From Escallonia rubra (lineage: Eukaryota > Streptophyta > Magnoliopsida > Escalloniales > Escalloniaceae): a stretch of 64,000 bases of DNA. Of the stretch, positions 5,882 through 61,857 are shown one piece after another. Within the stretch, counting starts at the first letter, position 1. The number at the start of each line of letters is the position of its first letter. The notes beneath the pieces were generated by a model. That model ran no database searches and was not told the DNA's origin. It was given only the letters and a program-made list of their open reading frames with translations. The translations under genes were made by a program, and so were the position numbers. The DNA lies in the NCBI GenBank assembly GCA_033065855.1, contig JAVXUO010000922.1, positions 1,364,001 to 1,428,000 of the forward strand, given 5' to 3'.

Positions 5882-6628
5882 ATGGATAGACCAGTGGCCT
5901 CCTGCTTGAAATTACTAGCTGAAGGCCCTAACAAACAAACATCCTGTTACGGAGGCTATATCATCAACGAGTTTAGGTTTAACGTAAAAGATGATGACCG
6001 AACAAAACAAACCCAAAACAGTGGAGTCTTGGTCAACGGCGACTGTTATGCCGAGAATTGCATGGACTTTTACGGAGAGCTAGATGAGATTGTTGAGCTA
6101 ACATATCTGGGTTCCCAAAACCGCCTGGTAATGTTCAAGTGTACGTGGTTCGATGTCACATGCAGTAGAGGAATCCGTGTTAGCTCTCAAAGGATTGTAG
6201 ATGTCAATGTTAAGTCAAGACTTGCATCAGACGAGCCCTTTGTGTTTGCTAGTCAAGTTGTACAAGTCTTTTATGCGGAGGACGTCGCCAATCTCAAATA
6301 TCATTGGTATACAATTATCAAGTCCAAGAAATTTCCCGTGACATATGAGAGTGAGCTAGACTCCTTTCAAGCCGACCAACCACCTGTCTCGTTCCCTGTT
6401 GAGGTCAACAACGAGGAGGACGATCTTCCTCTTCCAACAACACTTCATGTAGGAGAAGAAGTCGTAGATGATGACGCGAAAGACGTGGAAAGTGTTGGAG
6501 ATGATGTGACCGAGTCTATTGATGAAGAGGATGAATTAGAAGATGAAGAGGACGACGAGTCCCACGAAGAAGAGAACGACGAGGAAAGTGATGAAGATGA
6601 TGATGATTCTCAAACTGAAAATGATTGA
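5882..6628 (+). CDS. CACTA element protein segment with DUF4216 domain and acidic tail
   Basis: A 248-codon open frame. Residues about 20-160 match DUF4216, the domain usually found in the C-terminal part of CACTA TNP2-type transposase proteins: the NSGV block, MDFYGELDEIVELTY, RLVMFKCTWFDV, then DPFVFASQ-like DEPFVFASQVVQVFYAED. From about residue 180 the chain is almost entirely Glu/Asp with Ser. The frame has no internal stop, but the upstream exons with the catalytic region are missing; the AG just before (TTCAG, 5875-5879) could be an old splice acceptor, so the ATG at 5882 may not be a true start. A second copy of the same domain is at 61280-61857. Its cellular role is unknown. Confidence 0.85.
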   Translation: MDRPVASCLKLLAEGPNKQTSCYGGYIINEFRFNVKDDDRTKQTQNSGVLVNGDCYAENCMDFYGELDEIVELTYLGSQNRLVMFKCTWFDVTCSRGIRVSSQRIVDVNVKSRLASDEPFVFASQVVQVFYAEDVANLKYHWYTIIKSKKFPVTYESELDSFQADQPPVSFPVEVNNEEDDLPLPTTLHVGEEVVDDDAKDVESVGDDVTESIDEEDELEDEEDDESHEEENDEESDEDDDDSQTEND

Positions 6629-26500: not shown

Positions 26501-29500
26501 ATGGCTGCATCTTTCTCAGTACCTTCAATGGTATGATATCAACAACCTTATATCTTCTCCTACTGGGTTTCAGCATTCTTTTTTTAGTATTTTTCTTAGG
26601 CCATGTTTCAAGGGTCATGCATGTTCATGAATTTGGTTTGCCATATATAAGCACTTATCCTTAGATTTTGCTTTCGTGAAGGATATATAATTGAACTGTT
26701 CAATTATTAAATAAGTAGAACGAATCCACTCTGTATTGCAATGTCAATCATGTCAATGGTTCCAGAGATTTTTGAGGAGTTGAGCTCCTAAAATAAGATG
26801 CATGAAACTGTAGTGAACTGCTTTTGTTACAAGTTTAATGAGTTGAGCTGTATATTATGCATGCATGATCATTTTCGTCATTTGAAATATGATATACAAA
26901 CTGATCTTTTGATCCATTTTATGGTAGTAACATGATCTCATGAAGTGTTCTTTTCATCTCTCTCTCTCTCTCTCTCTCCTTCCCCTATCCCCCCCCCCCC
27001 CCCCCCCGCGAGTTAGTTTTATGGGACTTTGCAATTGATGTTTCCAAGGTGCAAACCTCATTTCTTTTTGAAGAGCTAGATGTTTTAGGCCCAAAGAGGA
27101 TAAAAGAAATTTTGCTAGGAACCACACTTCCGTTTCCCTCTTGCCTTGTTGCACACCTGAAATCTTAGGTAGATCTGGTCAATCAAATCTGTGAATCTGT
27201 AAATTCTGTTCTGAGTTTACGTTTAGTATAGTTTATTGATTTGTTAGGAAGTTTAAAGTTGGGTACATCTAACAATTCCTTACCCATTTCACAAACCCGC
27301 CGCCGGACCTCCCTTAAAGATCCCTTTTCGGATCTACTTGATCAGGAAAAAAAAATGTCATACGCGATATGACATTACCAAGTATTAATTCATGTGTGGG
27401 TAGCAGTGTGATTTAGCATTTTCATTACTTTGTACTTCCTTTCCCCAAGCATATCATGCCTCCTTTGAGGAACGCGTGATGCCATCTCCTTCCAATTTCC
27501 CGAAGGAAATTAAATTAGTTACAAGCTAGGGACAGGCACCTCCAATTTCCCTCTTAGACATTGTAGTTGTCAATCACCATGGTGTGATGTCTATCCCAAA
27601 ACCTAAGAAAGGCAAAAGCACAAACTTTGCCTAAGAAAGCACTCAGCCCCAGCTACAGAAACAAGAGAGACTCACTATTATCTAAGGCAACAGGCAAAGA
27701 CCAGTTACAGAACTTCGGAGGTAATTAACCTCGATGCCAAGGCTTTTGGCCTGACCAGACCTGTAGTTTTACCCAGAAGATTTGCTGATAAGTTGATTGT
27801 ACTATCATGAAAATTTTGAAAATGCAGAGTTGCTAATGAATAGTGATTTGATGTAAAAGTCTTGCTCAAGATTGCTTATCGTTTTGGAACTTCCATGACG
27901 AATTTGAAAACCTTTAATGACCAGATTATGGAAGAAGAAGGGAGGTTTGAAGCAGAAGTAGCAGAGGTGCAAGCATGGTGGAACTCTGAGAGGTTCAAGC
28001 TCACACACCGGCCATATTCAGCTAGAGATATCGTATCTCTACGAGGCAACCTCAAACAAAGCTATGGCTCAAATGAGCTCGCCAAGAAGCTATGGAGGAC
28101 TCTTAAAACACACCAAGCCAACGGCACATCCTCAAGAACTTTTGGCGCCCTAGACCCCGTTCAAGTCACCATGATGGCCAAGCACTTGGACACCATTTAC
28201 GTCTCCGGTTGGCAATGCTCGTCCACCCATACATCCACCAACGAGCCGGGACCAGACCTTGCGGACTACCCTTACGACACTGTCCCAAATAAGGTCGAAC
28301 ACCTCTATTTTGCGCAACAATACCATGATCGAAAGCAAAGAGAGGCACGAATGAGCATGACCCGAGAAGAAAGGGCTAAAACCCCTTACATTGATTACTT
28401 GAAACCCATTATTGCTGATGGTGATACGGGGTTCGGTGGTGCTACTGCTACTGTCAAGCTTTGCAAGCTCTTTGTCGAGCGTGGCGCTGCTGGTGTTCAT
28501 ATTGAGGATCAGTCTTCGGTGACCAAGAAATGTGGTCACATGGCTGGCAAAGTACTTGTTGCAGTTAGTGAGCACATTAACAGGCTTGTGGCTGCAAGGC
28601 TGCAATTTGATGTCATGGGGGTTGAGACGGTATTGGTTGCTCGTACGGATGCGGTAGCAGCCACTTTGATCCAATCCAATATTGACACTAGGGACCACCA
28701 GTTCATTTTAGGAGTCACCAACCCAAACCTCAAAGGTAAGGGCTTAGCCACTATTCTAGCAGAAGGAATGACTAATGGTAGAAATGGACCTGAGCTTCAA
28801 GCCATTGAGGACAACTGGTTGTCCATGGCAAAATTGAAGACATTTTCAGAATGTGTCACAGACGCGATCAAGGCAATGAACGTTGGAGAGGCTGATAAGA
28901 GGAGGAAATTGAATGAGTGGATGAACTATTCAAGTTATGAGAAGTGTCTCTCGAATGAGCAAGCCCGAGAGATTGCTGAGAGGTTGGGGATTACTAATTT
29001 GTTCTGGGATTGGGATTTGGCCAGAACTAGAGAAGGGTTTTATAGGTTTAAAGGGTCCGTTGATGCTGCCATTGTTCGCGGTTGGGCTTTTGCTAATCAT
29101 TGTGACCTTATTTGGATGGAAACCTCGAGCCCTGACTTGGTCGAGTGCACCAAGTTTGCACAAGGGGTGAAAACTCTGCAGCCTGAAACCATGCTGGCAT
29201 ACAATCTCTCTCCATCTTTCAACTGGGATGCATCAGGGATGAACGATGAGCAAATGAAGGATTTCATACCTAGGATAGCGAAGTTGGGTTACTGTTGGCA
29301 GTTCATTACCCTGGCTGGTTTCCACGCTGATGCGCTCATCGTGGACACATTTGCTAGAGACTTCGCTAAGAGGGGAATGCTGGCATATGTGGAGAAGATA
29401 CAGAGGGAGGAGAGGAGCAATGGAGTTGATACTCTGGCTCATCAAAAGTGGTCTGGTGCAAATTACTATGACAGGGTCCTTAGGACTGTCCAGGGAGGAA

Positions 29501-29744
29501 TCACTTCCACTGCTGCGATGGGAAAAGGCAGAATAACCAACCCCCCTCTCTCACTAAAAGAGATCTTTCTTTTTCAATCTTACATATTCTTAAATGCTAA
29601 GGAAGTAGAGTTGACATGAGTAACATATGTTTTGTTTGTGTACTTGCAGGAGTGACGGAGGACCAGTTTAGTGAGACATGGACTAGGCGAGGAACAACGG
29701 ATATGGGAGACGGAACTGTTGTTATTGCAAAATCAAGAATGTAG
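26501..29744 (+). CDS. ICL: Isocitrate lyase, glyoxysomal (three exons, 575 aa)
   Basis: The enzyme cleaves isocitrate to glyoxylate and succinate in the glyoxylate cycle, in peroxisomes/glyoxysomes, allowing growth on stored fat. Exons: 26501-26530 ([10 protein letters not shown]), 27925-29527, 29650-29744; 1,728 nt in total, 575 codons plus stop, the normal plant length. Seen in the product: [10 protein letters not shown], the active-site signature KKCGHMAGK with catalytic Cys at about residue 213, [24 protein letters not shown], and a C-terminal SRM, a type-1 peroxisomal signal. The tiny first exon followed by a long intron (1,394 bp) is set by the GT at 26531 and CAG at 27922-27924. The last intron (29528-29649) begins GC rather than GT. 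Reading through it would stop at 29617-29619 and lose SRM. The N-terminal ATG in intron 1 at 27862 is not the real start. Confidence 0.96.
29528..29649 (+). other. GC-AG intron (last intron of isocitrate lyase)
   Basis: The exon ends ATGGGAAAAG and the next exon starts GAGTGACGGAGG, restoring the conserved MGKGVTE. This join forces the intron to start GCAGAATAAC and end TTGCAG. No GT donor lies close enough to keep the reading frame. Confidence 0.85.
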
Positions 29745-34587: not shown

Positions 34588-35520
34588 ATGGCTTATCGTG
34601 TTAACACGAGAGCGCAATCAATGTCCTCTTCTTCGCAACCTCCCCTAGCGCAAAAAATAACGAGTGATCCGGTAACAAATAAAACAGCTCAGAGTTCCGT
34701 GACATGCGTCTACCAGACACATATCGGGGGTTATTGGCGTAATGTAACAGTTTTGTGGAATAAGAATCTTATGAACTATTCCCTCACCATTTCTGTCGAT
34801 AGCATAGATTCTGATTTTCATCACACTTGCAAGATTGACATCAAGCCTTGGCATTTTTGGGCTAAAAAAGGGTACAAAACCTTTGAGGTTGATGGAACCC
34901 ATGTTGAGGCCTATTGGGATCTTCGTTCAGCTAAGTTTTCCGGTAGTCCAGAGCCATGTACGGATTTCTACGTCGCCCTAGTTTGTGATGAAGAGGTGGT
35001 TTTGTTGTTAGGGGATTACAAGAAAAAGGCATATAAACGAACTAAATCGCGACCTGCCCTTGTTGATGCGGTTCTATTATACAAAAAAGAGCATGTATTC
35101 GGAAAGAAATGCTTTACGACCAGAGCAAAATTTGACCACAGGAAGAAAGAACATGATATTGTTGTGGAAAGCTCAACGTCCGGGCCGAGGGATCCCGAAA
35201 TGTGGATTAGCATAGATGGGATTGTTTTGATCCACATTCGGAATTTGCAGTGGAAGTTCAGGGGTAATCAGACTGTCGTGGTGGACAAGCAACCAGTGCA
35301 AGTTTTTTGGGACGTGCACGCCTGGCTATTTTGTAGCCCGGGTTCAAGTCATGGCTTGTTTATTTTCAAACCCGGCGTGCAAGAAACGGACAGTGATAAA
35401 GAGGATAGTAGCCACAATGATGAAAGTGATTGCAGCGGCGGAAGCAGGTATTATTCAACTCAAAGCCATTCGAAAGCCTCGCAATTCTGCCTTTTTCTTT
35501 ACGCATGGAAGATTGAGTGA
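34588..35520 (+). CDS. DUF868 family protein (single exon, 310 aa)
   Basis: A plant-specific family of unknown function, usually encoded by intronless genes of about 270-330 codons, as here. The order of conserved blocks is complete: VTCVYQTHIGGYWRNVTV (residues about 39-56), a CKIDIKPWHFWAKKG block, FEVDGTHVEAYWDL with SAKFSGSPEP, FYVALVCDEEVVLLLGD, EHVFGKKCFTTRAKF, a Pro-Glu-Met/ISIDG strand, LQWKFRGNQTVVVD, VQVFWDVHAWLF, then an Asp/Ser-rich linker and a C-terminal FCLFLYAWKIE. The first ATG sits in CCCATGGC. The N-terminal 38 residues are Ser/Thr/Gln-rich and poorly conserved. No transmembrane segment or signal peptide is apparent. Nothing suggests damage. Confidence 0.93.
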   Translation: MAYRVNTRAQSMSSSSQPPLAQKITSDPVTNKTAQSSVTCVYQTHIGGYWRNVTVLWNKNLMNYSLTISVDSIDSDFHHTCKIDIKPWHFWAKKGYKTFEVDGTHVEAYWDLRSAKFSGSPEPCTDFYVALVCDEEVVLLLGDYKKKAYKRTKSRPALVDAVLLYKKEHVFGKKCFTTRAKFDHRKKEHDIVVESSTSGPRDPEMWISIDGIVLIHIRNLQWKFRGNQTVVVDKQPVQVFWDVHAWLFCSPGSSHGLFIFKPGVQETDSDKEDSSHNDESDCSGGSRYYSTQSHSKASQFCLFLYAWKIE

Positions 35521-37535: not shown

Positions 37536-39029
37536 AAATATTTCAGAGGCTCTAAAAGATTCTGAGTGGATCCTTGCCATGCAAGATGAATTGAATCAAT
37601 TTGAGAGAAACGATGTTTGGTCACTAGTTCCGCCTCCTATTCAACAAAAGGTCATTGGAACCAAGTGGGTTTTTCGAAACAAACTTGATGAAGATGGCCA
37701 TATTGTTCGTAACAAGGCTAGACTAGTTGCTCAAGGATACAATCAAGTCGAATGGGTTGATTTTGATGAAACCTTTGCCCCAGTCGCTCAACTTAAAGCT
37801 ATCCGAATGCTTTTGGCATTTTCATGTCACATGAACTTTAAACTTTTTCAAATGGACGTGAAAAGTGCCTTCTTGAATGGGGTAATTCAGGAGGAAGTGT
37901 TTGTTAAACAACCTCCCGATTTTGAAAATGAAAAATACATCAATCATGTTTTTAAGCTGAAAAAGGCTTTGTACGGTCTTAAACAAGCTCCTCGAGCTTG
38001 GTACGATCGTCTTAGCAGCTTCCTCATTGATCATGGATTCTCTTGTGGCATAGTCGATACCACTCTATTTACGAAAATTTGTAACTCGCACATTTTAATA
38101 GTTAAAATTTATGTTGATGACATTATTTTTTGTGCCATTAACAATGATCTATGTCAAAGAGTTTGCCGAGAGTATGCGTAGGGAATTTGAGATGAGTATG
38201 ATGGGAGAACTCACTTTTTCTTTGGACTTCAAATCAAACAGTCAAAAGAAGGAATCTTTATAAGTCGTCCAAGTACACACAGGAGCTTTTGAAAAGGTTT
38301 GGTACCCCTATTTCTCTTAGCGTTAATCTTATCAAAGATGAAAATGGTAAAGATGTAGATAACAAACTTTATCGTGGTATGATTGGTAGTTTACTTAATC
38401 TTGCCACTTCTAGACCTGATATAATGTTTAGTGTATGTATTTGTGCCCGCTTTCAGGCTTGTCCCAAAGAATCTCATCTTACTGCAGTTAAACGCATTTT
38501 CAAATATCTATTTGGGACTTTAAATTTAGGACTTTGGTATCCGCGTAATTCCTCGCTAGATCTGATAGGTTTTTCCAATTCTGATTATGCGGGATGTCTT
38601 GTCGATCGTAAGAGTACTAGTGACACTTGCCAATTCCTTGGCGATGCATTAGTGTCCTGGCACAGTAAGAAACAGACATCTGTGGCTCTCTCCACAACTG
38701 AGGCAAAATATGTTGCGGCAGGAAGCTGTTGAACCCAAGTACTGTGGATGCGTCAAACTTTATGGGATTTCGGTGTCTTAATAGACCATATTCTTAATAT
38801 GTGCAATAGTAGCAGTGCTATTGATATTAGTAAAAATATTGTTTAACACTCGTGCACTAAGCACATCGATATTCGTCACCACTTTCTTCGAGGCAATGTT
38901 CAGAAAGGTTTAATCGAACTCAAGAAAGTTGGTTCAAGAGATTAACTTGCAGATATTTTTACCAAACCTTTAGCTGAATCTTCTTTTTGTTCTCTTCGTC
39001 GTCGCTTAGGAGTGTGTGATCTTAGCTAA
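37536..39029 (+). pseudogene. Copia reverse transcriptase / RNase H remnant
   Basis: Reading starts at ISEALKDSEWILAMQDELNQ and includes GTKWVFRNKLDEDG, KARLVAQGYNQ, QMDVKSAFLNG, ALYGLKQAPRAWYDRL and the catalytic YVDDI. The RNase H part follows with SRPDIMFSV, DYAGCLVDRKSTSDTCQFLG and STTEAKYVA, finishing at ADIFTKPLAESSF and a stop at 39027-39029. It is inactive: frameshifts near 38145-38165, 38215 and 38265, a stop right after AAGSC (38730-38732) and further stops beyond. Confidence 0.92.
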
Positions 39030-49785: not shown

Positions 49786-49791
49786 TTTATT
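49786..49791 (-). terminator. Poly(A) signal for the distal syntaxin 3' end
   Basis: On the minus strand AATAAA (GAGCAATAAAGTAGC) lies about 95 nt beyond the stop codon of the distal last exon, so that exon has its own plausible 3' end. Confidence 0.55.
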
Positions 49792-49885: not shown

Positions 49886-50047
49886 TTACTTCTTCCATGG
49901 TTTTAGAATAGATAGTACAACTATGAGCGCTATGATCAGAAGCAGAGAAATGGCTATCATCATGCATTTTCTTGACCTCTTCTGCAAGCTCTTGGCAGTT
50001 TGAAGGGCATCTGTACCCGACTGCACATGATCCACTGCGTTTGCTAC
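49886..50047 (-). CDS. Distal alternative last exon of the syntaxin gene
   Basis: The exon starts after TATAG and reads [20 protein letters not shown], then SRKCMMIAISLLLIIALIVV as membrane anchor, ending LKPWKK and TAA (49886-49888): 53 codons plus stop, phase 0, exactly exchangeable with the proximal exon 13. Joined to exon 12 (52496) it gives a 307-residue syntaxin. It aligns over its whole length to the proximal version with about half of the residues changed, mostly in the anchor and tail; the reading frame is intact, which argues for selection. No canonical upstream exons are duplicated, so it is an alternative terminal exon, not a second gene. Confidence 0.9.
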   Translation of the reverse strand, partial: VANAVDHVQSGTDALQTAKSLQKRSRKCMMIAISLLLIIALIVVLSILKPWKK

Positions 50048-51822
50048 CTATATGATCAAGAAATAAACATTTCTCGGATGAGCACTGATATATCAAATAG
50101 TCTTGGTATCCAACTTCATCAAGAATGTATTCAAGCTAAAAGCTTAAATGCCACAGTCCGTACAAGTTATAGAGGAGAGAGAAGGGGAGAGAGAGAGAGA
50201 GTCACAATCAGGCAGACACCACAGTGAGCAGACACCCTGCTTAATGTTTGAGTCGTAATACCAGTGTTCCACTCCTCTCGTGTGGATATCCTAGAGATCC
50301 ACTCCTCTTGTGTGGATAGAGCGGACACTCGAGTACTTAAAGAAGCATACCTTTTGTCTTGATTCGCATGCTATGCTCGAATGCAGGCTCATTGAGACTG
50401 GATCAGTGAAAGCATTTTGTAATGACAGTAGATAGATATACACATGTTTTATTGCTATGGGCCTATGTAAATTTTGAGTCATGCAGATGTCTGTAATAAC
50501 TTGAAATTTTACTATTAATGTCATGCGCTCATCTAAAAAAAAAAAAAAAAAAACATAAATGGACAGTTCTCTTTTTTCTCGTGACAAATCCCTCGCGTTT
50601 AAACCTCATACTTGACCTCAATCCCCCCCTCATTAGTTGCAGATCTAGACGTCCTCTAACTCAAGACTTGCAATGTAAATATATATCTACCCTTCCAATC
50701 AAGAATCTCAATGGAGCGCATAATTGTGATCAGGTCAATGAGACTTCTTGTGTCTGGCAAGTACGCTTGCGTTAATACCATTTTGTGGTAGAATAGTGGA
50801 CACACAAGCCCCCAAGGGAGATCACTTAGTGAGGGGGAGATAACACCAAGTCGAGATATCACAAAACTTGGTAACAACTTGCTATCGTGATACCGATCAC
50901 AATTTGCTCAACTCACTCGACACATGACACTACGTACTCACTTGAGCCGCCGCTGTTGATGCCCAGCCTCTGTTCTCCTCTTATACGTTGTTCCCCTCGC
51001 TTCAATCCAGAAGTCTTGTACACGTAGTAGGTCTATGTAGGATACTCGTGTATGTAGGCTATTTAGGATACTCCAGACTATACCATCATACACAATGTCT
51101 CTAACCTTAATTAAAATACTCTAGTCAAGTCCACTAATAATCAAGTTTATCATCCACTAAAAAAGGTTCCGTAGATTGTAAACCAGTGAAAATAGGGAAT
51201 CAGACCTAATGTTTTGCCCCAAGTTGACAACTCTTTATGTAACGGGACAAAGTTCTAAATGATAACACGGGGCACGTTATGACATATGAAAGATGCTGCC
51301 TAATTTTGCACCTTTTTTCACATCCTATATTCATCGCTAAAAGTTGCACTAGCAACAAATTATTTACTCTTTTTTAGCATCAAAAATGGTACTCCGTGTG
51401 TTAACAAGTATTCATTCAAGGTGTTAACATTCCAATGTAAGAATAACTCAAAAGTTTTGAACTTCATAAACAATTGTTAGATAAATGTACTAGCACAAGT
51501 AAAACAAATATTAAAAAAGTTAATTTATATACATATACACCCATTTGGGATGAAGTGTTAGTAAAAATAAAACTCAATGTAATGGAACGAAAATAATTTG
51601 GAGACAGAATTGAGAATCAAAGAAATGTAAATAGATTTACTTAAAAGTGTCTCAGCTATAAGGCTGAAAAAGGATTAAAAAAAAACAAAGGGAATGTCCA
51701 TGTTATGTTTTCCAACACCCTAATTCATTGCTAAAAAAATTCATGTTTTTATGGCTAATGCACTTTTTAGCGACGAATCGAGTGTGTGAAACATTGCACC
51801 AAGGAAATAGACGCAGGATAAC

Positions 51823-51828
51823 TTTATT
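51823..51828 (-). terminator. Poly(A) signal for the proximal syntaxin 3' end
   Basis: AATAAA on the minus strand (CAAATAAAGTT) lies about 395 nt past the proximal stop codon. It is the first full match downstream of that exon that was noticed and lies upstream of the distal exon. Confidence 0.45.
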
Positions 51829-52221
51829 TGACAACAAAATAACCAAGTAATGTTTCGCGTCATGGAAAATGCTTTATGGGCTAATATATACCAAGTTGTG
51901 GTGTTAGTTGGAAACACAAACAAGAATAAGGAAGCCATTAGAGAAGCTAAAAGAAGGGCCAATAAATAGTATGTATTGCCTATCAAATATCTTGCAAATC
52001 AAACCAAAAAACTTCAAAGCATAAGTTGTCACTCCCAACTCTTCAACCCAAGAAAGCCCCACAGTCGCAAACCAAACTTTACACCCAAAAGAATAATAAA
52101 GAAAATGAATCGGGAAAGCGATGAAAATGAAAGAAGAAGCTCGTCTCCCACCGTATTATATAACTCTAAAACCGTTACCAGATAGGTGCACGGACACCTG
52201 AACTGTAAGACGGGGACTACT

Positions 52222-52395
52222 CTAAGCACCCTTGCCACTCTTCCAAGGTTGGATGACACCGACTACTATTATAGCGACTATAATTAAGAGGATAATTATC
52301 GCAATGCACATCCATTTTCGGGAGTTCCTCTGGAGACTCTTTGCTTTCTGAAGTGCAGTTGTCCCTGATTGGACATGATCGACTGCATTCGAAAC
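52222..52395 (-). CDS. Proximal last exon of the syntaxin gene
   Basis: 57 codons plus TAG, starting [20 protein letters not shown], with the anchor [20 protein letters not shown]. It follows exon 12 after an intron of only 100 bp (52396-52495). Its anchor and tail look like the canonical Arabidopsis SYP132 end as I recall it. Confidence 0.92.
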
Positions 52396-55300
52396 CTGAA
52401 CAGCATTCCATTAACACATGACCGGAAGCATAACACATTGTTTTGTTATAAAACAAGTGTTGTGCATACAAAAAGGTGGTGTGAGAGAAACAAACCTGGC
52501 TTTCAATGTTATCCAACAAGTCTCCTTGAGCCTCAACTAGCACTGCCATATCAAGGTAAATCTGACACAAACAAAATTAGCATATCAAATCCTTGCTGTT
52601 CCTTCCTCCAGGAGGTACAACTTTAAATCTGGGTGCAATTATACCTGATGCAGGTCGAGAAGCTTTCTCTCAATTTCCTTTACAGCATCATGCCTCTCCT
52701 GAATTTCTTCCAAGGTATTTAATACCTGAAAACGTACTTTTCGACTAAGAACTCGGTACCAAAACAGGAGGGAAAATCGAAAGGGAAGCATGGAGAGCTC
52801 CAAAACAATAATCTTGAGATTCCAAAGGAAATTAGACCACAAAACTCACAATGTGAACTATCTTGTCAAATAACAAAATTCTCTGGCACATTAAGCAAAA
52901 CTCAGATATCAATTAAAAGGAACATATAACTATGCTCTGCAATAGTTTGTGCTCTAAGCCCCCAAAGAGAACTTGTGAAACGAAGCTACAGATACATAGC
53001 TAAAAGTTTAAAGATTTGCTAACATGTAGACTCACAGACTTCTAGGTAGTTTTAGCTTGCTCTCATATGCAGTAAAACTTGAAAAATAAACCGTCCATAT
53101 TTTCCGGGTGAACATCCCGGTAGTGCTTGTAAAAGAGGACTTAAATTTCAATTTCGTTTTCCCTTGAAAAGTAGCAGATTGTCAGGGTAGTTATCTCCAT
53201 GAATTGAATATAAACGCGACAAAAATAATCTTGGTTGAGCATGAAATTGCTGTGTTATGGAACCAATTCCTAATACGTTCCCTCTGGTCTCAGTTTGGAT
53301 TATCCTATTTGTTATTTCACCTAAAAAGGGAAAACGCAAGCGAGAAAAAAGAAATTCTAAGGCGCACCACCAGAAAACAAAAACTGGTCTTCCTGTGGGA
53401 AAATAACTCAGTTGAAGTTTGAAATCAACTACTTCATCCTACATACTCCAAGATTTATATTCGTGTACAGACTGCTTATACAAGCACACAGTTGCCAACA
53501 CTGCTAAGTTGCTGGGTGAAGTTCCACGACTAACAAGGCCAAGGAGAAGGAAAACTCGATGCTTCTATGAGCTGTCACTCATTAAATTGTTTATCTTGGT
53601 ACAAGCATATAAGTTTAATGATAAACAGGAACAATGGACTGGCCAATCCCGAAAGAGCCATTGCACCGACACGAAATTCATTAAAGAAAGGCACCTTTTC
53701 TCTTGGAAAATATACACTAAAATATCTAACGAATTCATTTTAAGAGGTGTGCTATTCGATTAATGTCATTTGGGGGTCATGGATAATTCAACATTAAAGT
53801 GAAGTCATTTTTCATTATTTTCATAATACTTGCTATGTAATGGGTGCGTTCTTTCCTTCTGTATTTTCGGGCGGGGGGAAATAACTTGGGCGGTGGATAG
53901 GAAGGAAGGATGAACTCACTCAAAGTATAATCCACAATGAAGCAAACAACATATATGCAGTTCAAGATAACTTCTGACCATTACTAATCTCCAGAAAGAC
54001 AGGTATAACAAGGCATAATAACCGTATTACAAATCAACATGGTACCTGTCCTCGGCCAGTTTGTTGCATAGCATTCTGAAAGATTTGTTCACTGTTTCCA
54101 GTTTCTATCAGGTGGTTGATTGTCTAACAAGGTAAAGAAAGGTTAATTAAGATCACATCTGGGGCATTATAACTCAATATTAACGGAAACCAAGGTTACC
54201 TCTTCATCTGGTCTTGATCCTGTAACTGTTCATTAGTGAATTTGAAACACATGAGGAAACATGATCAGTTGGATAGTGGAGACAATATTACTTAAGGGTT
54301 TAACTACATCATGAATTCTTATTTTGTAAGCAGGCAGGTTGAAGTAAGCAAACCTGTAATTACCCTTCTCTCCACAACCTCACGATATTCATCATCGATC
54401 TTTTGCCTCAAAGTCTGATACAGCATAAGTTGATGAGAACATATAGACGACTTAACTGCCAATATAACCATGCACGTAAACATACCTGAAATTCTGTCAT
54501 AAGGTCTCTGAACTTCTTGGTCAAGGCACTGCAAGTTCAAGAGAGAATAAACTACTTTTAAGTACTAACATAAGTTAATTTATCGTAAAAGAGGAAGTAA
54601 TCTGTGACTCAGAGTTATTCTATTCATGGAACGCACTTTGTCATATTTGTCCGCGATCGGTCGATACCTGTTCCCTTTCCACAACCAGGCTTCTGTCGAT
54701 TAGCTAAGTTCTACAAGGGAAACAAAAAGGAATCAGTTTATACTACCATAAGAGCTAACAACTCTAGCAGAACTTGTAGCCAAATACAAGAAAAAGAACA
54801 GTCACTGAAAAGGAGCAATACATCTTTGTTTATTGCTTCTACTTTCGCTTTCACATTACGTGCAATCTTGCCCACTTCATCAACATCTTTCTCCATTCGC
54901 TTCCTGATAGCTGGAAACAACAGTTATAGGTTATTACTGCGGAAGCATAGCAAACACAAGCAGTTGGCATTGTACATCAATAGCTCCTAAACTAAATGCT
55001 ATTTGACATGGCTAACTTAGTTATTTTTGGCAAGTGCAACTATACAACTGTATAATTGGCTAGTAAGCAGCACTAAGCCATGTGATCGACTCATGGCTAA
55101 TCTATGTCAAAATAACAGGTTATGGTCTATTTTCAACTATGACCAAGTTACTAGAAGTAGAAAAAGAATTTCACCTTTCATAGCGGAAGCTTTAGTAACA
55201 GACTTTGACTCCTCGTTGGCATCCTGGGACAAGATCAACAAAAACGTGAATATTTGCCAAAACGTTTGTTGTCCAAGCGAATTAGGACTCCAAGATAACT

Positions 55301-58300
55301 AATTTTATATTACAGTCCTTTAGCCTTTACTTTGATTAGTCCCATTAATAATTGGGATAGTCATGTAAGATGTCTTAGCAATGCCTATAGAGAGTTTAGT
55401 AAAAAGAAAGAGTTACTAGAAAATCTAAATGAAAACAATGACATGAGCAAGGTACTCCAGGAAAAACTGACACAAGTATCTAAGAGGTCAGGTAATCATT
55501 TAAGACAGCAACTGCTCTTGATCTTGTTATTTCTTTACAAGTGGAGTAATTGCTGAAGTGTATAAAGTTCTTGAACCATTTTATGTTGTTAAGTCCTAGG
55601 ATTTTGACTACCTTAATCCTTAAAAAGTGTGAGTGGACTCAAACATATCCATGGTTGAAGAATTCATAGCAACCCTTACAAATTTTTCTCTGCTCCCTCT
55701 ACTTCCTCACAAACCCAACCTTATAACGTATTCAAGCATTGGATTACATCAATCAAATAGGATAATTTTCCTTGAAGGAAAGATCGAGAAGCAGCAAGGT
55801 TGAGCATATATGCAAAGGATATACTCTAACTTTTACTTTCTTTTCTTGGGCAAGCGAAAAGCAAACAACTAAGAGCATCAAGGGGGAAAAACCTACCGAA
55901 ACTGAACAATGGGAAGGAGAAGAGAAAAACAAGTTTATATATCGGTAAAACTATAACTTGTAAACCCAAAATCCCAGTGGTGGGGTGGGAGGTAACCCAT
56001 GTTCAAATTCATAATAGCAGTTCCATCCTTAGTAGTAGGGAACTCCTAATATGGTGACACTTCTCTCTTGGAAACTCACTTTTGCGATCCCAAGTTAGGA
56101 GCTCCACAAGATCTTGTCCCAAGCTAATATGGGAACTCGATCCCGTCAGCTGGACACAGATGCATGGAACAAGTGAGAGTGCCTGAAAATCAAGCCCTTT
56201 TCAACTCATTCTTTGTTTCTCTCTTCCTTCACGTCCTTAGAGCCTCCTTGTCTGTTGTTGATGGCTACCTTCCTCAAGAGAATAGAGCTTGTCAATCAGT
56301 TCTCTCTCTCTCTCTCTCCCTCCCCCCCCCCCCGAGAGAGAGAACAGAGCTTTTCAGGTGCTTACGCTCCCCAGCCCCCGTTCCCGTTCCAGCCCCCCTT
56401 TGTGCAACTAAGGTTCCATCCCCATCAATTGAGGGTTTCTTCACTTTGTAGTGCCCCCTTCACCACAAATACAACTTGGCAACCACACCAGCTCAATTTT
56501 TCATTTTGCACTGCCTCCTAACAGAATTCTAATATCTCCTTGACTGATTCAGATGTAACTGACCGAGCATACAACTATATATTTGTCCAGCAGTATATAA
56601 CCACTCCAAAAGTACTGAAGATTGAACATAATAAAAGAGAAATTGCCAGGAAGAGATAAAGAAGCAAAAAATTTTAAGACTGGCAATTTGCCCATCAAAT
56701 GGGGGGCCTTCTAGAAAACTGGCATAAAAGGGTAAACTCAACCACGGATCTAAGCGTAAATCCATTAAATCTTCAACAAATTAATGAGGAGGGCCATATC
56801 CCTTAAATCAAATGAAGAAGTGCATTTAATTCGAATGAAAGCCAATGAATTGCTTATAACTACTTCCTCTTCAAATGGGAGAAAAAAGTGATCTTCTCAT
56901 TCATTTCATATCACATGTTTTAAAATTTTTACTTCTGCCCGAGTTTCCTGAATTAGAAGTTAGAAGTAAAGTTCAAACTTTTAATTCTGCAGGAGTTTCC
57001 TAAAGCTTAAAAGTTAGAAGTACAAGTCCACCATATCAAAACGGATGCCCATCGAGTGTAAAAGCCTACTTGAGAATCTTGCCAAATCAGAATAAAATCT
57101 ATATCTTCCAGAACTAAGTTTCATGATGTTAGGTTGTGTCCATGGCAAGGAGATCTGACTTTCAGGTTTTGAACAAGCTAAACAGTAATATGCTCATCAC
57201 CTTCCAGAACAACTAACCAAAGATTGGTACTTAGTAGTCAAACCCATGCAAATTTACAGAAAAAATGAAGAAATAAATGGTTGACAACTGATAATTTCTT
57301 CTTCAGAACATATTACATGCAAATAATAAGCTCAAAATAAGGTCAAATATACGTTGCATGAGCCACGCCGTACTAAATTAAAAGTCATTCTGTATATTTT
57401 GTTACATCACAAAAAAGAAAAAGACAGCTCTGCAGGAATTTCATACCTTGAGTTTCTTAAGTAACTCCGAAAGCTTATCAACCTGTTTATCAACCTCTTG
57501 TATCTACAAATCAAAGAAAGAACAGAGATAAGAAACAGAAGACAAAAAACTCAATACTAGTATCGAAATAATACAAACTCAAAGAGAGAGTGAATTTTTG
57601 CTTGCGGGAGATAAGGGAAAAAAATGTTACTTATAATTCAACTATTCTAAACCTTTGGCCCAAACAACAAGAGTTGTACACGAATCCTTTTTCTTCCACT
57701 CTCCCAAATTCAAATTCTCAAACATAATAGATAACATATGATATCTTCAATACACCATCCCTCCATTCTAATTAGAATCTATACAATACCTAGATAGTTA
57801 GTGAGATTTCAAACCACAAAAGAGTCCGGACTCAGGAGTGCATTTACCTGCTTATTGAAAGCTTCCATTCCCAAATCCGAGTTACTCCTCGGAACCGGAA
57901 CTCGGGTGCCCATCTCAATATCTGTTTCCCTAGAAGGATGCTCTTTGGCATCACCAACAAATGAATCCTGAAAGTATTACCAATTACACAAATCTAAATA
58001 AACTCCACACCAGATCACCTAAAATGCAGAACAACCAATTGTGTAACCAAATCAACAGTTAAAGCACGATCAAGGAAAAAAAAAAAAAAAAAACAAAACA
58101 AGAGAATGTCAGTGTCATCATTAGGCTTTGTTTGGCCGCATAACATTTTATACATGGCATCTGGCGGAATATTAGTGTAATTGGCATGATTAACGCCCGT
58201 TTTGGGGATAATCCCTCGTGGGTTTTTGCTTCCAACAACAAGAAACCCAAATCCATTGAACAAATCAAATTAACATAATGTTTGAAAAGCCATCACCAAA

Positions 58301-58459
58301 TCAATTTTCACCAATCAAAGCAGTACACATACAGAAAACAAAAAAAAAAAAAAACAGAAAACCCATATACGAGTTACGCAAATTGAATTATACTAGCTAT
58401 GTACGTGAGCATAAAGATGGCGAGACACAGGATAAACATACCGTAAGCAAGTCGTTCAT
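52222..58459 (-). CDS. SYP132: Plasma-membrane syntaxin (Qa-SNARE) SYP132-type, 13 exons, 311 aa
   Basis: A t-SNARE that drives fusion of secretory vesicles at the plasma membrane. Exons in transcript order: 58459-58442 (MNDLLT), 57967-57848, 57503-57447, 55223-55175, 54910-54822, 54710-54637, 54528-54486, 54414-54354, 54225-54200, 54123-54046, 52725-52645, 52561-52496, 52395-52222. All introns are GT-AG and all phases agree, giving 311 residues. Seen: acidic start with DIEMGTRVP, Habc helices (about 35-150), [20 protein letters not shown] motif with zero-layer Gln at residue 244 (VEAQGDLLD), then [20 protein letters not shown] as a C-terminal anchor and a short PWKSGKGA tail. The SYP13 group assignment rests on these blocks; SYP132 over SYP131 is judged from the C-terminus. 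A second last exon exists at 49886-50047. Confidence 0.94.
55224..57446 (-). other. Large third intron of the syntaxin gene
   Basis: 2.2 kb between exons 3 and 4. It contains a CT/C-rich stretch (56304-56332) and GC-richer DNA (56160-56520) whose open frames (for example 56164-56451) lie on the opposite strand and are low-complexity; no mobile-element ends were found. Confidence 0.7.
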
Positions 58460-60300: not shown

Positions 60301-61263
60301 CACTGTTTTTAGTGACGGAATTTGGCTCCGTCACAGAAATTCCGTCACCTAAAACTAACCAATGTTAAGATGTAAAAACTAATATAAATTTAGCGACCAA
60401 ATAATTCGTTGCTAGAAGTTTCAGCTAAATGTCTAATTTTGATTGTTTTTTTTGTTTTTTTTAGCTTTGGAGAAAACCCCTAATGTATAATCTTAGGGCT
60501 TTGTTTTTCTTTTCATTTCCCTCTCCTTCTCTGAGCTCCCACTGCCATCTTCAATTCCCCAAAGCTCTCACCGTCGCCCCCTCCTTTCTCCCCATTCCGT
60601 CACCGCCGGCCGATTTCCCTCGTCGTTTCCCTTCGAGCCGCGCAGCGCCTGTGCGCTCCTGCCCCGCACGCCACGCCTGCTCCTGTCGCACTTGTTTTGC
60701 CCTACAAGCACAGTCGCTGTTCCTGCCGTGCCGCAGCAAGACTGCTGCTCCTACCTGGAAATTGCTCTCTCACCGAAAATTGTTGCTCCGTGGCTGCTCT
60801 CTCACCGAAAATTGATGCCGTCCGTTTTGCTGTCGCCGTTTCCCCCTCTGATTTGCTGCTGCAGGTAAGGTCACGGTCCTGTTTTCTCATGATTTTCTCT
60901 CTTTATATTTTCTCTTTCCTTTTCTTGAGTCCATTTTGCAATTACATGTTATAATTTGGTATATTGTGTTATTCATTGTAGGGATTGAACTAGTAGAGAT
61001 CTAGGTCTTGGAATTTTGGACAAGACCAAAATTGTGCTAAAAATAAAAGTCTAGTTATAATGTTATCATGTAAATGGTTTGTGCTAAAAATAAAAGTCTT
61101 ACGGCAAATTTATGCTATGTTACATACACAAAAAAAAAAAAATAGCCTAATACATATACTACTAAGATTATTTAAGGTCATGCTAGGTGAAATGTAATAT
61201 ATCTTATGAGTAGCCGTTAATTGTGTTTTTCTGTTTAGAAATTTTTCTTTGTTGGCTTTTCTT

Positions 61264-61857
61264 CCAGTTTCTTTTTGTGTGTTTTTGAAGGGTGGAAGGT
61301 GCAAGGGTCTTAATCAAACTGCTTGTGATTTCTATGGACAACTTGACGAAATCATCGAGTTAGAGTATGCTGGTGGGGGAAATCGACTGGTTATGTTCAA
61401 ATGTACATGGTTTGACATTACGTCAAGAACCAATTTCCATGTTAGTAGACATGGGATTGTCGATGTAAACATGAAATCAAGGCTGGCTTCAAATGACCCA
61501 TTTGTCTTTGTTTTTCAAGCTTCACAAGTGTTTTATGCAGATGCTGTTTCAAAAAGGAATATGAAATGGTCATCAGTTATTAGGACTAAGAAAATTGAAG
61601 TTTCAGATGTACCGGATACATACCAGGAGGATGAAGCTTCTGCTCTGTTACATGCTGGAGTAGATGAGATCGTTGACGACGTGCCTCTTCACGCAGTAGA
61701 TCAAGTTGGAAATGAAGTAGGAGATGACAAGATCAGTGCAATATATAATAATGATCATGAGACAAGTAGTGATGACGGAGAAGAAGATGAAGATGAAGAG
61801 GAACATGAAAATGAAGAAGATGAAGACGAAGACGAAGAAGATAAAGAGTTTGATTAA
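61264..61857 (+). pseudogene. DUF4216 segment of CACTA element 3
   Basis: An open frame carries CDFYGQLDEIIELEYAGGG, RLVMFKCTWFDIT, DVNMKSRLASNDPFVFVFQA and FYADAV, then an acidic tail of mainly Glu and Asp ending in EFD and TAA. It corresponds block by block to 5882-6628 of CACTA 1, but lacks the N-terminal NSGV part, so it is truncated or starts in an unseen exon. Similarity is clear at protein level and weak in the tail, meaning the copies are old or from different subfamilies. Confidence 0.75.

Follow-up and report, generated by a model that had tools for sequence, protein, structure and literature searches.

A SYP132-like syntaxin gene with two predicted alternative last exons in Escallonia rubra

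A gene for a SYP13-type plant syntaxin was found on the minus strand (49886–58459) of a 64,000-nucleotide stretch of Escallonia rubra DNA (contig JAVXUO010000922.1, positions 1,364,001 to 1,428,000), referred to here as the window. It comprised 14 exons, the last two of which would be used as alternatives. With a probability of about 0.93, it is the E. rubra orthologue of Medicago SYP132, a plasma-membrane Qa-SNARE of the SYP13II clade with alternative last exons. Medicago SYP132 yields an alpha and a beta form by alternative splicing and polyadenylation (PMC7145992, PMC9158536), and in its gene the alpha exon comes after all others (PMC7145992).

The two-ended SYP132 (SYP13II) architecture had been proposed in an earlier reading made from the letters of the window (the sequence-only reading), and it held: the gene body fell in clade II and the alpha exon came last, as in Medicago (PMC7145992). 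The window gene resembled Medicago truncatula SYP132 (SYP132A or alpha, SYP132C or beta) in its SYP13II body and its two last exons with alpha at the end, the Medicago layout being taken from its description, and in both species each tail finishes the SNARE domain and supplies an anchor. An extra exon 14 was reported in every mycorrhizal dicot surveyed but Aquilegia coerulea (PMC9158536). E. rubra belongs to the campanulid asterids (Escalloniales). Its draft genome is described in PMC10759652, where the place of the Escalloniales in the tree of life is called unclear.

Gene structure and the two last exons

The coding part of exon 1 (58442–58459) provided the start codon and the residues MNDLLT. 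Exon 2 (57848–57967) was delimited by its GT..AG borders and phase, and exons 3 (57447–57503), 4 (55175–55223), 5 (54822–54910), 6 (54637–54710), 7 (54486–54528), 8 (54354–54414), 9 (54200–54225), 10 (54046–54123), 11 (52645–52725) and 12 (52496–52561) were read from the gene structure, all on the minus strand. Spliced at GT..AG borders, exons 1–12 gave an open frame of 254 codons. Exon 12, the last shared exon (ending in IESQ), closed in phase 0, so the frame opened into either the proximal exon 13 (52222–52395, beta type, acceptor TTCAG) or the distal exon 14 (49886–50047, alpha type, acceptor ATATAG). Exon 13 contained 57 codons and a stop, and exon 14 contained 53 codons and a stop; the joined proteins were 311 aa (proximal, beta) and 307 aa (distal, alpha). 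Both isoforms scored above the Pfam cut-offs for Syntaxin (PF00804) and SNARE (PF05739), and a hydrophobic C-terminal anchor was read from the sequence of each tail. Comparison with solved structures returned general syntaxin kin only. The sequence-only reading had given the coordinates and phase of exon 12 and the coordinates and lengths of both last exons correctly, and its claim that both exons keep the frame and encode the end of the SNARE domain, an anchor and a stop was borne out.

A comparison of exons 13 and 14 over 53 codons found identical letters at 38 of the first codon positions, 43 of the second and 20 of the third. The proportions of nonsynonymous (pN) and synonymous (pS) differences were 0.23 and 0.80, the latter being saturated. 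A chance origin of both open frames was rejected by this codon-position pattern and by pN 0.23 versus pS 0.80, on the strength of which the two are read as coding exons that have long existed side by side and been held by selection on their protein.

Nothing in the sequence preceding either acceptor marked one of the exons as constitutive or the other as regulated. The exons lay ~2.2 kb apart, with an inverted repeat resembling a miniature inverted-repeat transposable element (MITE) between them. Its arms (51316–51374 and 51733–51791) were 59 nt long, 71% complementary and 358 nt apart, and look like an old MITE-type insertion. Direct repeats near the last exons were short and seemingly unrelated to the exons.

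Phylogeny of the gene body and typing of the tails

A total of 274 protein ids was collected; the window tails (P0001 and P0002) were excluded and 51 rows were dropped because of their length or because they lacked the junction motif. The resulting set of 223 rows included both window isoforms, and each row was split into body (exons 1–12) and tail. In a FastTree tree of the 223 bodies rooted on 14 conifer rows, 165 rows formed clade II (SYP13II) and 44 formed clade I (SYP13I), beside the 14 conifers. Clade I contained Brassica, Tarenaya, Striga, Heliosperma, Protea and Amborella; clade II contained the window gene, magnoliids, orchids, Ranunculales and core eudicots, and within it a node uniting the window gene with Ranunculales had a support of 0.998. 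An IQ-TREE run on 37 bodies hand-picked from the 223 rows (Liquidambar being flagged for a long branch and odd composition) supported clade II at 100/99.9. On this tree, a window body in clade I was rejected (delta lnL 84; approximately unbiased test, p-AU far under 0.001). These trees place the body of the window gene in the SYP13II clade.

Tails were typed by their closer identity to the window alpha or the window beta tail. All 44 clade I tails and all 14 conifer tails were beta; clade II comprised 97 alpha and 68 beta tails. Thus, alpha tails were seated on SYP13II bodies in 97 of 97 cases and beta tails on SYP13I, SYP13II and conifer bodies. The alpha tails formed one clade, both in the 223-row set (97/97 rows at 0.963) and in a tree of 38 tails picked from it (14/14 at 100/99.9); the latter had 57 columns and an unsettled bootstrap. 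Mean identity of the window alpha tail was 82% to 93 alpha tails and 63–66% to the other three groups. The window beta tail shared on average 82% with 67 SYP13II beta tails, 86% with 44 SYP13I tails, 90% with 14 conifer tails and 63% with the 93 alpha tails. Six positions separated the two types by a different predominant residue, present in over 80% of each; at all six, both window tails had the residue of their own type. The sequence-only reading, in which the distal exon was the symbiosis-type (alpha) and the proximal exon the general (beta) form, agrees with these identities and residues, the proximal tail being like those of Brassica, Tarenaya and conifers.

A search with the alpha tail returned 104 matches, of which 82 were typed, all 82 as alpha. 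This list is an incomplete census and missed 14 of 96 non-window alpha rows (e.g. Quercus and Vitis); with that limit, no Brassicales or Caryophyllales were found among the 98 of 104 matches with an organism name. The best 120 of 547 beta-tail matches included Brassica, Tarenaya and Heliosperma.

Alpha/beta pairs from the same species were hand-picked from the listings, and in 9 of 11 the bodies were identical over their full length. Identical-body pairs of SYP13II are deposited for Ziziphus, Mangifera, Manihot, Hevea, Actinidia, Prosopis, Erythranthe and Xanthoceras, in which respect the window gene would be like them. The pairs of Davidia (242/252) and Salvia divinorum (236/252) had non-identical bodies and are probably paralogues; a twelfth pair, from Ipomoea, consisted of two alpha tails and was not counted.

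Three rows, P0124 and P0127 (Rhododendron) and P0054 (Sarracenia), had SYP13II bodies with beta tails, and no alpha tail of either genus was among the 104 matches of the incomplete list. Neither genus is known to form arbuscular mycorrhiza. They may have lost the alpha exon and retained the gene. Two further models had unusual tails: P0003 (Lupinus) contained two beta tails, and P0107 (Arachis) began as beta and continued into an alpha tail. These repeats and fusions are probably annotation errors.

Deposited gene models, expected splicing and competing readings

In a whole-protein search (best 120 of 1856 matches listed), Escallonia proteins occupied ranks 2–4. Rank 1 was P0003 of Lupinus, which scored highest because its model repeats the tail. 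Of the 307 residues of the distal isoform of the window, the first 135 and the last 158 recurred unchanged in P0006 (E. rubra, RJ640_011286). In place of the remaining 14, P0006 had a stretch misread from exon 7 and the intron after it, 37 residues of which matched the window letter for letter at 54415–54525. The public E. rubra gene model is faulty: exon 7 is read out of frame and the model runs through the following intron. P0006 uses the distal exon only, and the E. herrerae models P0004 and P0005 likewise end in an alpha tail.

The same exon layout makes a splicing choice as in Medicago the best explanation of the two ends. Cleavage and polyadenylation after exon 13 would leave exon 12 to join exon 13, giving the beta protein; transcription past exon 13, with this exon skipped, would join exon 12 to exon 14 and give the alpha protein. 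By homology with Medicago, in which alpha is predominant in arbuscule-containing cells (PMC7145992), the Escallonia alpha protein would be the form enriched in such cells, where it would be expected at the periarbuscular membrane, and beta the general form. The splice choice, its regulation and its symbiotic role in Escallonia are all expected by analogy.

Several points weigh against this reading. The sequence-only reading had noted an AATAAA 3′ of each tail, and both are present, at 51823–51828 (394 nt past the beta stop, with another at 50448–50453) and at 49786–49791 (95 nt past the alpha stop); because the motif occurs at 0.78 per kb on the same strand, close to its background frequency, they are weak evidence for polyadenylation sites and were set aside as proof. 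In the 223-row FastTree tree the support for the clade II node was low (0.438). In the 57-column tail tree, grouping of the window beta tail with the alpha tails was not rejected (p-AU 0.435), so this tree alone does not fix the nearest kin of the beta tail. Unlike the dicots with deposited pairs, Escallonia was represented by alpha alone in the three deposited models found; because the best 120 of 547 beta-tail matches contained no Escallonia row, its deposited annotation seems to be without the beta product. Both Escallonia transcripts are predicted from genomic structure and homology. In Medicago, beta can substitute for alpha without visible defect, and arbuscules were normal in a line without the alpha exon (PMC7145992). 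In rice, SYP13II single mutants had normal mycorrhiza and a double mutant of SYP13II and a SYP13I gene did not (PMC9158536). Because of the Medicago replacement and the normal rice single mutants, the need for alpha is disputed even in the model plants.

Two other readings of the gene were considered. The distal exon might be a relic, open by chance or in recent decay, with beta alone being made; the gene is known here from genomic sequence alone, and the ~2.2 kb with a MITE-like repeat between the last exons would fit such a history. We regard this as very unlikely, since exon 14 retained its frame, acceptor, anchor and stop, and its tail combined a mean identity of 82% to alpha tails with the alpha residue at all six discriminating positions. 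The gene might also be an ordinary SYP13I syntaxin whose last exon was duplicated, with no relation to the symbiotic SYP13II clade. SYP13I proteins share the Syntaxin and SNARE domains, and their tails resemble the proximal tail of the window; however, the window body lies in the other clade, its placement in clade I having been rejected, and alpha tails occurred on none of the 44 clade I bodies. This is the more remote of the two and has next to no credibility. The SYP13I clade holds Arabidopsis SYP131 and SYP132 (PMC9158536). A SYP132 orthologue with alternative last exons is the reading retained here.

Other features were detected in the window. An isocitrate lyase gene was present as one long open reading frame (ORF) at 27862–29619 (PF00463, E 9.5e-271), and an ORF at 34588–35520 matched nearly the whole profile of the DUF868 plant protein (E 8.1e-112). 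Two DUF4216 ORFs (5882–6628 and 61249–61857) are presumably transposon-derived. A copia-type reverse transcriptase piece (RVT_2) lay at 37579–38181, and a Transposase_28 ORF was found at 2281–2910 (putative gypsy type).

Symbiotic role and origin of the two-tailed gene

Escallonia is not known to nodulate, and unlike in Medicago the mycorrhizal role alone could apply to it. The sequence-only reading had called the distal exon the isoform devoted to symbiotic interfaces and had concluded that the plant is an arbuscular-mycorrhizal host. The alpha assignment stands, and "devoted" is too strong, given that beta, expressed at its native level, takes the place of alpha in Medicago (PMC7145992). As to the host status, seven orchid rows matched the alpha tail, three of which were typed, all as alpha on SYP13II bodies. 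Orchids form a different mycorrhiza. Lupin, which is non-mycorrhizal, retains SYP132A orthologues (PMC5316927). Because orchids and, as reported, lupin have retained the alpha form or an orthologue of it, this exon indicates an arbuscular-mycorrhizal host well but not strictly; Escallonia is probably such a host, and the step from exon to host had been worded too strongly. Judging by titles and the starts of abstracts, no paper on the mycorrhiza of Escallonia was recognised in a single literature search.

The two-tailed gene has been attributed to SYP13I and SYP13II having crossed over unequally once Aquilegia had split off (Huisman 2016, as cited in PMC9158536). In our set, P0185 from Macleaya cordata had a beta tail on a SYP13II body, which grouped with Papaver SYP13II at 100/98 in the 37-row IQ-TREE tree; its placement in clade I was rejected (p-AU 0.0003). 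Macleaya cordata belongs to the Papaveraceae (Ranunculales). Two Papaver rows had alpha tails on SYP13II bodies. Either both exons were present in Papaveraceae, or the gain occurred twice, or the Macleaya model was wrongly joined. It is conceivable, at rather less than even odds, that the two-tailed SYP13II gene predates the Ranunculales split and so is older than published, its second exon perhaps having been duplicated within SYP13II instead of acquired by crossover with SYP13I.

Such a tandem duplication, by which exons 13 and 14 would have arisen within SYP13II, leaves the gene and its function the same, and we regard it as less likely than not. Placing all SYP13II tails in one clade was not rejected and cost 0.2 log-likelihood units (p-AU 0.507); against it, the SYP13II beta tails did not separate from those of SYP13I and conifers, and the magnoliid, monocot and Ranunculaceae SYP13II rows of the 223-row set all had alpha tails. 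With 57 columns and an unsettled bootstrap, the tails neither supported nor rejected either origin; because a single origin of SYP13II tails (p-AU 0.507) and a grouping of the window beta tail with alpha were both retained, the crossover is neither shown nor excluded.

The gene is a fine instance of a known one, though not a surprising one: its arrangement has been described in other flowering plants, in which one of the two ends serves root symbioses with fungi and bacteria. It would extend a known symbiosis-linked splicing switch to the Escalloniales. For E. rubra itself, the deposited model is wrong at exon 7 and confined to the alpha exon. The Macleaya beta tail casts doubt on the age so far assigned to the two-tailed gene and is relevant to the timing and mode of origin of the switch.

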